Source: Martelella mediterranea (lineage in GTDB: Bacteria; Pseudomonadota; Alphaproteobacteria; Rhizobiales; Rhizobiaceae). From it: a DNA stretch of 64,000 nucleotides. This document shows, in pieces, positions 55,932-60,069 of this stretch. Under the pieces are notes generated by a model that did no database searches, had not been told where the DNA came from, and saw only the letters and a program-made list of their open reading frames with translations. The position numbers and the translations under genes were made by a program. The stretch covers positions 1 to 64,000 of the forward strand of contig NZ_JAINWJ010000005.1 in assembly GCF_021021415.1 (NCBI RefSeq), in the 5' to 3' direction. Every line of letters starts with the position of its first letter. Position 1 is the first letter of the stretch.

Positions 55932-56131
55932 CAAGGGCTCCTGCGGCGGGAAAATCGGGCGTATACGCAATTTTATTACAACATACAGCCAGATTCTTTC
56001 AACTGGGAGAAATGGTCTGTTGGTAGCTTGCCGTCCGGCCTTGAAACAGACGGCCTTCCAGCCATAAATGGGGGCAGACTTGCAACTGTTGCGGCGTGCC
56101 CCTCTTTGTGGCGCGCCAAAAGGATTTTGAG

Positions 56132-57109
56132 ATGGCAGACCACCACACCCAGGTGCTCATCATTGGTTCCGGCCCCGCCGGCTATACCGCCGCGATCTAC
56201 GCAGCGCGCGCGATGATGAAGCCGGTGCTGATCGCAGGGCTCGAACAGGGCGGACAGCTGACGATCACCACCGATGTCGAGAATTATCCGGGCTTTGCCG
56301 ATCCGATTCAGGGCCCGTGGCTGATGGAGCAGATGCTCGCCCAGGCGGAAAATGTCGGGACCGAGATCGTCAACGATATCGTCACCAAGCTCGACCTGTC
56401 CAAGCGCCCCTTCACCGCCACCACCGATTCCGGTGAAACCTGGATCGCGGATACCGTCATCCTCGCGACCGGCGCCAAGGCCAAATGGCTCGGTCTCGAG
56501 AGCGAGCAGACCTTCAATGGCGGCGGCGTTTCGGCCTGCGCCACCTGCGACGGCTTCTTCTATCGCGGCAAGGATGTGGTCGTGGTCGGCGGCGGCAATT
56601 CAGCGGTGGAGGAAGCGCTCTACCTCGCCAATATCGCCAAGACCGTGACGGTCGTGCACCGCCGCGACACGTTCCGCGCCGAGCGGATCCTTCAGGAAAG
56701 GCTGTTCGCGCTGGAAAACGTGAAGATCGTCTGGGATCACGCGGTGGAGGAAATCGTCGGCACCAGCGCCGTGCCGCCGCTTCCGCCATCAGTGACCGGC
56801 GTCGCGGTGAAGAACGTCAAGACCGGCGAGAAGCAGACCATCCCCGCCGATGGCGTTTTCATCGCGATCGGGCACACGCCGCAGGTCGACCTGATCCGCG
56901 ACCAGCTCCGCCTGAAGCCCAACGGCTATCTGTGGACCGAGCCGGGCACCACCAAGACAAGCATTGAGGGCGTCTATGGCGCCGGCGATGTCACCGACGA
57001 CAATTACCGTCAGGCCGTGACGGCGGCCGGCATGGGCTGCATGGCGGCGCTTGAGGCGGAACGCTTTCTGACAGGGCAAAAGACCGGCACGCTGGCTGCC
57101 GCGGAGTAG
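56132..57109 (+). CDS. trxB: thioredoxin reductase
   Basis: TrxB uses NADPH and FAD to reduce thioredoxin. The 325-residue product has the FAD motif IIGSGPAGYTAAIYAAR, the redox motif CATC (Cys136, Cys139) and the NADPH motif VVVGGGNSAVEEALYLA. The C-terminal FAD site is GVYGAGDVTDDNYRQAVTAAGMG. AAAGGA precedes the ATG. The LysR gene follows after five bases, so both are probably in one operon. Confidence 0.96.
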   Translation: MADHHTQVLIIGSGPAGYTAAIYAARAMMKPVLIAGLEQGGQLTITTDVENYPGFADPIQGPWLMEQMLAQAENVGTEIVNDIVTKLDLSKRPFTATTDSGETWIADTVILATGAKAKWLGLESEQTFNGGGVSACATCDGFFYRGKDVVVVGGGNSAVEEALYLANIAKTVTVVHRRDTFRAERILQERLFALENVKIVWDHAVEEIVGTSAVPPLPPSVTGVAVKNVKTGEKQTIPADGVFIAIGHTPQVDLIRDQLRLKPNGYLWTEPGTTKTSIEGVYGAGDVTDDNYRQAVTAAGMGCMAALEAERFLTGQKTGTLAAAE

Positions 57110-57114
57110 GGTAA

Positions 57115-58026
57115 ATGAAAAGCACGAGCATGCCTCTGGACTGGGACAAGCTCAGGATCTTTCATGCCGCGGCGGAGGCAGGATCGTTCACGCATGCCGC
57201 CGACAAGCTCCATCTTTCGCAGTCAGCGATCAGCCGGCAGGTCTCCGCGTTGGAACAGGATGTCGGCGTCAAGCTGTTTCACCGCCACGCCCGCGGCCTG
57301 ATTCTCACCGAACAGGGCGAACTGCTTTACCGCACCGCCAACGATGTGCTGCTGAAGCTCGAAAGCGTGCGCTCACGGCTGACCGAGACCAAGGAAAAGC
57401 CGTCGGGCAAGCTCAGGGTCACCACCACGGTCGGCCTCGGCCAGGGCTGGCTTACCGATAAGGTGCAGGAATTCCTCCAGCTCTATCCCGACATGCAGAT
57501 CCAGCTCATCCTCGACAATGAGGAGCTGGACGTGAACATGCGCCACGCCGATTGCGCGATCCGCCTGCGCCAGCCGCAGCAGCCGGACCTGATCCAGCGC
57601 AAGCTGTTTACCGTGCACATGCATGTCTACGCCTCGCCCTCCTATATCAACCGGCATGGCGAGCCGCAGTCGCTGGAAGACCTCGACAACCACCGAATCA
57701 TCACCTTCGGCGAACCGGCGCCCGCCTATCTGCTCGACGTGAACTGGCTGGAGATCGCCGGTCGCTCGCCCGACAGCCCGCGTCCGGCGCATCTGCAGAT
57801 CAACTCGCTGACCTCGATCAAGCGGGCGGCGCTTTTAGGAATCGGCATCGTCATGCTGCCGGATTATATCGTCGGCCGCGATCCCGGCCTGCTGCAGCTC
57901 GTCACCCACGCCGATGTGCCAAGTTTCGACACCTATTTCTGCTATCCGGACGAACTCAAGAACTCCGCCAAGCTGAAAGTCTTCCGCGATTTCATCGTCG
58001 CCAAGGCCCGCAACTGGAGCTACTGA
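57115..58026 (+). CDS. vtlR: LysR regulator VtlR/LsrB
   Basis: The 303-residue LysR protein starts with PLDWDKLRIFHAAAEAGSFT and has the helix-turn-helix HAADKLHLSQSAISRQVSALE. An effector domain follows, including the Cys of NMRHADCAIRLRQ. The trxB-LysR order and the sequence fit LsrB of Sinorhizobium, a redox-linked regulator of lipopolysaccharide and stress genes. That protein is the orthologue of VtlR of Brucella and Agrobacterium, which controls AbcR sRNAs. The two AbcR-like sRNA genes just downstream (58444-58752) strengthen this. GGAG of the trxB end serves as ribosome binding site. Family assignment is by recollection, not alignment. Confidence 0.9.
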   Translation: MKSTSMPLDWDKLRIFHAAAEAGSFTHAADKLHLSQSAISRQVSALEQDVGVKLFHRHARGLILTEQGELLYRTANDVLLKLESVRSRLTETKEKPSGKLRVTTTVGLGQGWLTDKVQEFLQLYPDMQIQLILDNEELDVNMRHADCAIRLRQPQQPDLIQRKLFTVHMHVYASPSYINRHGEPQSLEDLDNHRIITFGEPAPAYLLDVNWLEIAGRSPDSPRPAHLQINSLTSIKRAALLGIGIVMLPDYIVGRDPGLLQLVTHADVPSFDTYFCYPDELKNSAKLKVFRDFIVAKARNWSY

Positions 58027-58160
58027 GCTCCCTCCCCTTCGGCTGCGGCGTTGATCCTTCGCTCGCAGCCGCGTTATCATGAAAAACATGCGTCTAAATT
58101 CAAACTGCTGACAGAACCGCGGCTTCAGAGGTGTTGATGCTTGCTGATCCCGCCAAAGGG

Positions 58161-58271
58161 GTCATGCTCGGGCTTGACCCGAGCATCCATACTGACCAAC
58201 CAATTGAATTATAGGTTTGTTTTAACGCTGTACCAACCTGCCTGGATCCTCGGGTCAAGCCCGAGGATGAC
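58161..58271. repeat. dispersed palindromic repeat, copy 2
   Basis: This is the second copy of the element at 17403-17512, 111 bp long. The first 35 or so bases and the last 30 or so are shared, while the middle differs. Both ends are hairpins with CTCGGG-type stems. It lies between vtlR and the sRNA genes. Confidence 0.8.
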
Positions 58272-58408
58272 GCCGAGGGGGTGAAGAGGGTTGTCAACAC
58301 CTTGGTGAATTCCGCCTATTTTTTAGGCTGTATCGTCGTTCGTCCTAATTTTAAGCAAAATCTGCTGCATTTTTCATCTTTCGCATGGCAGCCATGCACA
58401 AAGATGCA

Positions 58409-58437
58409 TTGTGAAATGCCTAATTCAGGGGCATATA
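58409..58437 (+). promoter_or_regulatory. promoter of the first AbcR-like sRNA
   Basis: TTGTGA at 58409-58414 and CATATA at 58432-58437 are separated by 17 bases, giving a usable sigma-70-type promoter. A transcript would start near 58444. The -10 region plus following GCT is shared with the second sRNA gene (TTATAGCT at 58642-58649). Confidence 0.55.
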
Positions 58438-58443
58438 GCTCGC

Positions 58444-58563
58444 AGCTGATGCAGGTGGTGCCCAACTTCTCCCTGGTGCACCGCAGCAGCTGTTCCCCTC
58501 TGGAGGTTTTGAGAGACCTTCTAACTCAAAGGGCCCCGGTTTTTCCGGTGGCCCTCTTTTTTT
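58444..58563 (+). ncRNA. AbcR-like (alpha-r15) small RNA, first copy
   Basis: The predicted transcript is about 120 nt. A first stem (GGTGC/GCACC) exposes a pyrimidine-rich loop (AACTTCTCCCT). A conserved 28-nt block at 58483-58510, containing CTGTTCCCCTCTGGAGG, follows. It ends in a strong terminator. The same block occurs at 58681-58708 in the second copy. The CUCCC-type stretches could pair with ribosome binding sites. Tandem sRNAs next to vtlR/lsrB match the AbcR1/AbcR2 pair that represses ABC-transporter mRNAs in Rhizobiales. The 5' end is inferred from the promoter. Confidence 0.75.
58531..58563 (+). terminator. terminator of the first AbcR-like sRNA
   Basis: The stem GGGCCCCGG/CCGGTGGCCC (one bulged T) has a TTTTT loop and is followed by TCTTTTTTT. 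Confidence 0.88.
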
Positions 58564-58652
58564 GCCCGCACGAATTTGTTGTTTTTTTCCGCAATCTGCG
58601 ATGAAAACTATTGCAACGCGCACAAAAAAGAACCATATCGATTATAGCTGAT

Positions 58653-58752
58653 GCGTTCGATACGGCATCCCAGCCGTATTGCAGCAGCTGTTCCCCTCTG
58701 GAGGTTTTACCTTCACACTTACAAGGGCCCCGTTTCGGAGGCCCTTTTTTTT
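58653..58752 (+). ncRNA. AbcR-like (alpha-r15) small RNA, second copy
   Basis: The predicted transcript is about 100 nt. A 5' stem-loop ATACGGC/GCCGTAT (loop ATCCCA, near 58660-58679) is followed by the 28-nt block at 58681-58708, identical to that of the first copy. A terminator follows. The upstream -10 is TTATAG near 58642; no good -35 is seen, which could mean activation by the neighbouring LysR regulator, as VtlR does for AbcR2 in Brucella. The two copies differ in the 5' stem-loop, which may give them different targets. Confidence 0.73.
58724..58752 (+). terminator. terminator of the second AbcR-like sRNA
   Basis: The stem AGGGCC-CCG/CGG-A-GGCCCT has a TTT loop and is followed by T8. 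Confidence 0.88.
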
Positions 58753-58953
58753 GTGCATCGCCAGCATCCTTCGAACCGCTTACCTTTGAGGTGCGTAAAC
58801 GCTTTCTTTTGGTTTATACATTAGAGCGTAAGCCATGTAGAAAGACGGCAGGCAAGCTTGCAAAAGCCGCCGTCGCAACGGCAAGCCGGGACGGAGGCTG
58901 TAAATTGCACCTGCGCCGGGCCTCCGCTACAAGTAGGCACCGGAAGGAATTTG

Positions 58954-60069
58954 ATGGCTAACCTCTTTGACCCCATAACGATCGGCGATGTCACAATCGA
59001 GAACCGGATCATTATGGCGCCGCTGATGCGCAATCGCTCGCCTGAAGCCGTTCCGAACGAGCTCAATGTCGACTATTATCGCCAGCGGGCAAGCGCGGGC
59101 CTGATCATTTCGGAAGCCACCGCGATCACCGAACAGGGCCAGGGCTATTCCAACGCGCCGGGCCTCTACAGCGATGCCGCGGTTGAAGGCTGGCGGAATG
59201 TCACCAAGGCGGTGCACGAGGCCGGCGGCAAGATTTTCTGCCAGTTGATGCATGTCGGCCGGGTATCGCACAAATCGCTCCAGCCCTTCGGTGACCCGCC
59301 GGTGGCGCCATCGGCCCTGCAGGCCCGCGCCAAGACCTTCGTGGTCTATTCCGACGCGACCAGCGACTTCATCGAGACCTCGATGCCGCGCGCGCTGAAG
59401 CCGTTCGAAATTTCGGGAATCATCGACGATTACCGCCGCGCCGCCGCCCGCGCGCTCGAGGCCGGATTCGATGGTGTCGAGATCCATGCCGCCAACGGCT
59501 ATCTCATCGACCAGTTCCTGCGCTCCGGCAGCAACCAGCGCACCGATCTCTACGGCGGCCCGATCGAGAACCGGGCGCGCTTCATGTTCGACGTCGTCGG
59601 CACGATTTCGCGGGAGATCGGGCCCGGCCGCACGGCGATCCGGCTTTCGCCCGTGGCCCCCTCCAACGATGTGCATGACGACAATCCGCAGGTTCTGTTC
59701 AATTACCTGGCAAGCCAGCTCAGCGCCTACGACCTCGCCTATATCCATGTCATCGAGGGCGCGACCGGCGGGGACCGCAATTACAGCCAGGGCCCGCGGC
59801 CTTTCGACTACGAGGAAATGCGCCAGACCTACTACCGCACAGATGGGTCCGGCGCGTGGATGCTCAACAATGGCTATGACCGCCAGCTCGCCATCGACGC
59901 GCTTGAAAAGGAGCGGGCCGATCTGATCTCCTTCGGCCGCGCCTTCATCGCCAATCCGGATTTGGTGCGCCGGCTGCGGATCAATGCCCAACTTAATGCG
60001 TTGGATCAGAGAACGCTTTTTGGCGGCGATGCCAAGGGTTATGTCGACTACCCTCCCCTCGGCGGCTAA
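58954..60069 (+). CDS. Old Yellow Enzyme family ene-reductase
   Basis: The 371-residue FMN enzyme has NRIIMAPLMRNRSPEAVPN near the start, the substrate-binding HAANGYLIDQFLRSGSNQRTD and YGGPIENRARFMFDVV, and the FMN phosphate region SFGRAFIANPDLVRRL. This is the NemA/OYE class acting on electrophilic alkenes, nitro compounds or similar. GGAAGGA lies six bases before the ATG. No regulator gene is adjacent. Confidence 0.93.
   Translation: MANLFDPITIGDVTIENRIIMAPLMRNRSPEAVPNELNVDYYRQRASAGLIISEATAITEQGQGYSNAPGLYSDAAVEGWRNVTKAVHEAGGKIFCQLMHVGRVSHKSLQPFGDPPVAPSALQARAKTFVVYSDATSDFIETSMPRALKPFEISGIIDDYRRAAARALEAGFDGVEIHAANGYLIDQFLRSGSNQRTDLYGGPIENRARFMFDVVGTISREIGPGRTAIRLSPVAPSNDVHDDNPQVLFNYLASQLSAYDLAYIHVIEGATGGDRNYSQGPRPFDYEEMRQTYYRTDGSGAWMLNNGYDRQLAIDALEKERADLISFGRAFIANPDLVRRLRINAQLNALDQRTLFGGDAKGYVDYPPLGG

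Follow-up and report, generated by a model that had tools for sequence, protein, structure and literature searches.

Two small RNA genes lie one behind the other, downstream of a gene for a LysR-type regulator, in Martelella mediterranea. The question that this locus raises is which of them the regulator controls, and through which motifs each RNA would reach its targets. The window, that is, the whole stretch of 64,000 nucleotides that was analyzed, corresponds to C52:1-64000 of a 5.41 Mb genome in 106 contigs; in NCBI taxonomy, Martelella belongs to the Aurantimonadaceae (Hyphomicrobiales). On the plus strand, the order is trxB, vtlR/lsrB, a gap of 417 bp, abcR1, abcR2 and an old-yellow-enzyme-type reductase. 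The features are as follows:

56126-57109, plus strand: trxB, thioredoxin-disulfide reductase (NCBIfam TIGR01292, 400.8 bits against a cut-off of 343.45), the 5′ neighbor of vtlR
57115-58026, plus strand: vtlR/lsrB, LysR-type regulator of 303 aa (Pfam HTH_1 and LysR_substrate; synteny)
58383-58397, no strand assigned: predicted VtlR/LsrB box, the odd palindrome GCATGGCAGCCATGC, at -61 to -47 of unit 1
58409-58437, plus strand: predicted sigma70-type promoter of abcR1, TTGTGA - 17 nt - CATATA (from conservation)
58444-58563, plus strand: abcR1 (unit 1, ar15 copy 1), about 117-120 nt (RF02345; fold with three hairpins)
58600-58638, plus strand: block conserved in the genus, with the predicted abcR2 promoter (from alignment and conservation)
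58646-58752, plus strand: abcR2 (unit 2, ar15 copy 2), about 105-107 nt (RF02345; fold)
58954-60069, plus strand: old-yellow-enzyme-type reductase, the next gene 3′ of abcR2

Very probably, this locus is the known trxB-vtlR-abcR1-abcR2 module in Martelella, with unit 1 driven by VtlR, and unit 2 driven separately and acting mainly through the motif M2. The palindrome at 58383-58397 is the most likely binding site of VtlR (LsrB), which would from there activate the sigma70-type promoter that yields AbcR1. This RNA would pair via an exposed anti-Shine-Dalgarno loop, the M1-like CUUCUCCC, and also via a single-stranded linker, M2 (GUUCCCCUC), with ribosome-binding sites in mRNAs for transport and metabolism, silencing these mRNAs with the help of Hfq. 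AbcR2 would be transcribed from a separate promoter that has no VtlR box and is probably recognized by a sigma factor of the heat-shock type. Because its first loop is no longer visibly constrained in the genus, AbcR2 probably acts mainly through M2. The RNA family, predicted structure, gene order, conservation of box and promoters, and absence of CUCCC from unit 2 are read from the sequence. We infer transcription, VtlR binding, RpoH dependence, the part of Hfq and the mRNA targets from published relatives.

The regulator, the RNAs and their order

Judged by synteny and by identity to rhizobial relatives, from which it takes its name, the LysR protein is the VtlR/LsrB ortholog. It is 87-99% identical to the best 80 of 577 named relatives, among which the nearest proteins from outside the genus belong to Rhizobium and Ciceribacter; the second-best LysR protein of the source genome shows 31% identity to it. 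Its 25 best NCBIfam models all stay below their cut-offs, and none bears the name VtlR or LsrB. Between vtlR and abcR1, at 58150-58290, there is a repeat element whose inverted arms are of the CGGGCTTGACCCGAG type, and the element or its arms have 113 matches in the source genome. We take it to resemble rhizobial REP/RIME elements.

The AbcR identity of both units, proposed by an earlier sequence-only reading of this DNA, is confirmed. In an Rfam cmscan, unit 1 matches RF02345 (alpha-r15, ar15) with 98.2 bits (E 2.5e-19, 58444-58560) and unit 2 with 86.9 bits (E 1.8e-16, 58646-58750), the gathering score of the family being 40 bits; both matches span positions 1-112 of the 112 in the model. 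Besides these two, no other Rfam match at gathering score is listed in the 64-kb window, in an output that omits two same-clan matches that overlap and score lower. A whole-genome search gave no third ar15 copy in the source genome. The two tandem units at 58444-58752 are present as that reading had described them, each with a 5′ stem-loop, a core and a terminator hairpin followed by a T-run. The identical 28-nt core, GCAGCAGCTGTTCCCCTCTGGAGGTTTT, starts at 58483 in unit 1 and at 58681 in unit 2, and is absent elsewhere in the window on either strand. The minimum-energy folds of both units consist of three hairpins, the third being a Rho-independent terminator with a U-run, in agreement with the two terminators expected. 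These folds are stable (z of -3.20 for unit 1 and -5.55 for unit 2), with none of 200 dinucleotide shuffles being as stable. A simple scan of 58300-58800 returned no terminators (shuffles gave a mean of 0.7); we think that its pattern allows no bulge and hence misses these bulged terminator stems. The same scan returned a single promoter, on the minus strand, which is neither of the predicted abcR promoters.

A 14-nt part of the core had been proposed to pair with ribosome-binding sites. This stands for GUUCCCCUC(U), which is the unpaired part in both predicted folds, but not for the GGAGG within the TTCCCCTCTGGAGG stretch, which is paired in hairpin 2 in both. Because the former is free and the latter is held in hairpin 2, the folds suggest that the 14-nt core corresponds to the published M2 (GUUCCC) plus neighboring bases. 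GUUCCC lies in the linker of hairpins 1 and 2 in both units, where it is predicted to be unpaired, and GTTCCCCTCTGGAGG is identical in both copies in all 13 Martelella genomes.

The VtlR/LsrB neighbor and the widely kept order, also part of the first reading, are borne out by the comparison with relatives. At E <= 0.001, ar15 was found in 52 of 101 genomes (the source genome and 100 relatives), and over the gathering score in 40, in a search whose strict filters may have lost weak matches. Among the 50 ar15 loci fetched, which come from 44 of the 52 genomes (the matches in the 8 omitted genomes score at most 39.8 bits) and have flanks of about 1.5 or 3 kb, some ending at contig ends, vtlR is in the same stretch in 41. 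Every one of the 13 Martelella genomes, the source genome included, has two ar15 copies, and vtlR adjoins the pair in 12. The exception is G012, which keeps the box and both promoter motifs at its abcR pair (C1:2323759-2324064, plus strand) and has a 96% identical vtlR at 2335906-2336814 on the minus strand. Since this vtlR is about 12 kb away and in the opposite orientation, the adjacency of vtlR and abcR is not obligatory. In each of the best 80 of 577 named vtlR loci, vtlR is followed by one or more AbcR cores (two in 57, one in 22 and three in 1), at 82-483 nt from vtlR to the AbcR RNA start. There are three consecutive AbcR copies behind vtlR in one genome (G058, L026), and in another (G026; L015, L056-L058) just one of six ar15 matches lies near vtlR within the stretches examined.

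The VtlR box and the two promoters

The VtlR/LsrB consensus is given as GCAT-N3-TG-N3-T, together with its position in S. meliloti (PMC7486931, PMC8844928). The box at 58383-58397 matches it exactly on the minus strand and has one mismatch to it on the plus strand. If 58444 is counted as +1, the predicted box begins at -61, just as reported for S. meliloti; the RNA starts used here, 58444 and 58646, are those predicted by the RF02345 model. An exact consensus is found in register 5′ of copy 1 in all 13 Martelella genomes (including the source) and in 68 of 72 other loci; these 72 are the best 80 of 577 named loci minus 8 Martelella-like ones (L060-L067), the genus being represented by the 13 genomes. 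In 60 of the 68 it lies at -61 on the plus strand and in 8 at -59 on the minus strand, with an additional match at -68 on the minus strand in 4 of them. The 4 loci without the exact consensus have a near-match in which the first G is altered. At equal base frequencies, about 0.7 of 72 loci would be expected by chance to carry the consensus anywhere in 90 nt.

In the predicted abcR1 promoter, TTG and GCATA are invariant among the 13 Martelella genomes. A literal TATAG, which the sequence-only reading had taken as the -10 element of each unit, is at the expected place in unit 1 (58434), but in unit 2 (58643) it overlaps the model RNA start at 58646 and varies among the genomes. What is invariant before unit 2 is CCATAT at 58633-58638, within an almost invariant block, and this region is conserved at least as strictly as the promoter region of unit 1. 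The predicted elements of unit 2, TTGCAA (58611-58616) and CCATAT, separated by 16 nt, partially match, at similar spacing, the RpoH1 consensus CTTGAA-N16-CCTATAT that has been assigned to PabcR2 of S. meliloti (PMC8844928). In the source genome, one RpoH match exceeds the curated cut-off, with 371.9 bits, and two weaker sigma-factor matches fall below it (273 and 134.1 bits). PabcR2 of S. meliloti is suspected of having an uncharacterized upstream enhancer, and the block at 58600-58638, roughly 40 bp long, may include it. A 28-nt part of this block has a single site in each of the 13 Martelella genomes, and a search allowing up to 3 mismatches found no second one. The block was also considered as a wider regulon motif and rejected, being single in each genome at 28 nt and, in the source genome, occurring once at 39 nt with up to 3 mismatches.

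As for other sites, the strict palindrome pattern GCATNNCWGNNATGC occurs 3 times in the source genome and, over all 13 genomes, 40 times: at the 13 abcR1 sites and at 27 others, the latter being about 2 per genome. The reversed pattern, a weak control in which the dinucleotides are changed, gave 0 sites. Context was viewed for two of the 27, both in the source genome. One is the palindromic VtlR-like box GCATTGCTGCAATGC (L140:1501-1515), 50-64 nt 5′ of an ar14-like sRNA at 1565-1649 with two CCTCCTCCC motifs (L140 region, G000:C44:7548-7696). This sRNA scores 45.7 bits against RF02344, under the cut-off of 58.8. In S. meliloti, LsrB is reported to activate NfeR1, an sRNA that presumably belongs to ar14. 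Because a search of the other 12 Martelella genomes did not return the stretch with box and ar14, and because no consensus lies within 110 nt 5′ of ar14 in 30 fetched over-threshold Martelella loci, or 5′ of 12 weak matches in other genomes (one with 24 nt of upstream sequence), this pairing is a lead. The third box of the source genome, GCATGCCAGCCATGC (L142:1501-1515; G000:C85:100772-100786), lies, by eye, between an apparent GntR-type regulator reading frame and a divergent one for a TRAP-type solute-binding protein. In another region (L180, G007:C54:25-1021), three consecutive ar14-like matches each overlap the end of an apparent small repeated reading frame, again by eye.

The 5′ hairpins and the role of unit 2

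The roles of M1 (CUCCCA) and M2 (GUUCCC) have been studied in B. abortus (PMC5461406). The window loops are each one letter off this M1, being CUCCCU in unit 1 and AUCCCA in unit 2, whose loop lies at about 58666-58671. Among the 13 Martelella genomes, the interior of the unit-1 hairpin has a mean pairwise identity of 0.93, and its apical loop is ACUUCUCCC in 9 and AUUUCUCCC in 2; CTCCC is in the loop of 12, the exception being L027 with CTCCTT, and CTCCCA is in none. The interior of the unit-2 hairpin has a mean identity of 0.59, with 11 distinct forms in 13 genomes and apical loops of 3-6 nt, and CTCCC occurs in none of them. Three second copies have CTCTCC (L027, L031, L033), and the other nine are at least two letters off M1. 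Among 50 second copies from outside the genus (from the best 80 of 577 loci), CTCCC is missing in just two, L126 and L138. By contrast with its loop, the stem base and core of unit 2 are identical, and its terminator is present, in 13 of 13 Martelella genomes.

When the unit-2 hairpins of the 13 genomes were aligned with MAFFT, using the 11 distinct forms and omitting two duplicates, the gaps were too many for pairs to be counted; the counts were made on four related rows of equal length with the structure of the window's own row. In these rows, both bases are replaced in 5 of the 8 upper-stem pairs of hairpin 1, and pairing is preserved. For the whole structure, the shuffled mean of such double changes is 1.2, and none of 500 shuffles reaches the observed number. 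The pair-type measure, one of five, gave 5 observed against 5.0 shuffled, with 415 of 500 shuffles reaching 5. From the sequences, the stem of unit 2 looks as if it were kept for its shape, with a drifting, cap-like loop.

A drifting loop on a kept stem argues against a second target set defined by the loop, and for action mainly through M2. The sequence-only reading had concluded from the different 5′ loops that the two RNAs have separate target sets. The loops do differ, and both AUCCCA in the window and CTCTCC in three Martelella genomes could pair with ribosome-binding sites; because of these loops, a mainly M2-borne role of unit 2 is less certain, and unit 2 could keep a residual M1-like role. 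Nevertheless, a loop that is not conserved within the genus, as its low interior identity and many forms indicate next to those of unit 1, and whose stem is maintained by compensatory changes, makes separate sets improbable. It is more likely that the targets of unit 2 are a subset reached via M2.

The separate promoter may be questioned as well, since the first reading placed its VtlR assay site at 58580-58660 and thus implied that both units are under VtlR. In favor of this, 43 of 50 multi-copy loci outside Martelella (from the best 80 of 577) have the consensus 5′ of copy 2, in 42 of them within one base of the -61/-59 register (L134 is out of register), and the copies in loci with the consensus before both are 88-99% identical. 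However, none of the 13 Martelella genomes has the consensus before unit 2, their two copies are merely 71-78% identical within a genome, and the consensus lies at 58383-58397 instead; moreover, AbcR2 is reported to be independent of VtlR in A. tumefaciens and dependent on RpoH1 in S. meliloti. Control of both units by VtlR is therefore very unlikely here. Least probable of all is that unit 2 is a decaying, non-functional duplicate, although it has neither CUCCC nor a VtlR box and AbcR2 of A. tumefaciens is said to lack a robust regulatory function (PMC5461406, PMC7486931). Decay would leave hard to explain the unchanged core, stem base and terminator, the strict promoter region and the stem compensation. 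Thus, the preferred reading is that of a unit 1 probably driven by VtlR, by analogy with the published relatives, and of a separately driven unit 2 acting mainly through M2.

These comparisons tentatively suggest, with the balance somewhat against so general a statement, that the vtlR-linked AbcR tandems of rhizobia and their relatives are of two kinds: near-identical copies both driven by VtlR, and diverged copies of which the second is on a heat-shock-type promoter and acts mainly through M2. Martelella would have fixed the second kind, with a genus-specific block. The contrast between pairs with a box before both copies and the promoter-split pairs of Martelella is the mildly new part. The analysis extends a well-studied regulator-sRNA module to Martelella, corrects the site at which VtlR should be assayed and indicates the likely copy for each targeting motif. 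The survey also suggests a rule, in which the presence or absence of a box before copy 2 predicts the relatives that have both AbcRs under VtlR.

Comparison with known systems

The first reading saw in this order a regulator-sRNA module that has stayed together. The order holds, but the module and its arrangement are already published and the suggestion is no longer new; Martelella is an additional member. The available text of PMC3927594 has nothing on tandem copies or Martelella, and a literature search on small RNAs in Martelella found nothing on this subject, as judged by titles and the start of abstracts. Adjacency to the regulator gene in Brucella and Agrobacterium, as had been stated, applies to Agrobacterium and to abcR2 of B. 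abortus, which is with vtlR on chromosome I, but not to its abcR1, which is on chromosome II (PMC7486931).

A. tumefaciens C58 shares with the window the order trxB-vtlR-abcR1-abcR2, with tandem AbcRs and a VtlR box described for abcR1 (PMC7486931). Northern blots reported there show that AbcR1 requires VtlR and AbcR2 does not. AbcR2 of this species is said to lack M1, so M1 does not define the family, and it has been proposed to act mainly by M2 (PMC5461406, PMC7486931). The window differs in the gene 3′ of abcR2, which is arsR in A. tumefaciens and the old-yellow-enzyme-type reductase here, in the final U of its M1, and in the AUCCCA of unit 2.

In S. meliloti, lsrB-abcR1-abcR2 likewise has two independent units in tandem, 121 and 114 nt long, and Hfq stabilizes AbcR (PMC3712013). 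LsrB drives PabcR1 and RpoH1 drives PabcR2 according to reporters, Northern blots and gel shifts, with an LsrB-type motif at -61 to -49 of PabcR1, as in the window, and an RpoH1-like PabcR2. Both sRNAs are described as silencing transport and metabolic mRNAs via two anti-Shine-Dalgarno motifs (PMC8844928). The reported effects of lsrB conflict, with none on either AbcR in strain 1021 (2020, PMC7486931) and a strong one on AbcR1 in Sm2011 (2022, PMC8844928). In S. meliloti AbcR2, CUCCCC replaces M1 (PMC5461406), whereas unit 2 of the window has no CUCCC. B. abortus is alike in RNA family, in the M2 sequence and in VtlR control of the linked copy (PMC5461406, PMC7486931), but instead of a tandem it has one copy per chromosome, with M1 in both.

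Finally, the loci in which both copies are preceded by a box (42 of 50 multi-copy loci, mostly Rhizobium, among the best 80 of 577) also have vtlR followed by AbcR copies. Unlike those of the window, their copies are nearly identical, carry CTCCCA in both and are both predicted to be under VtlR.
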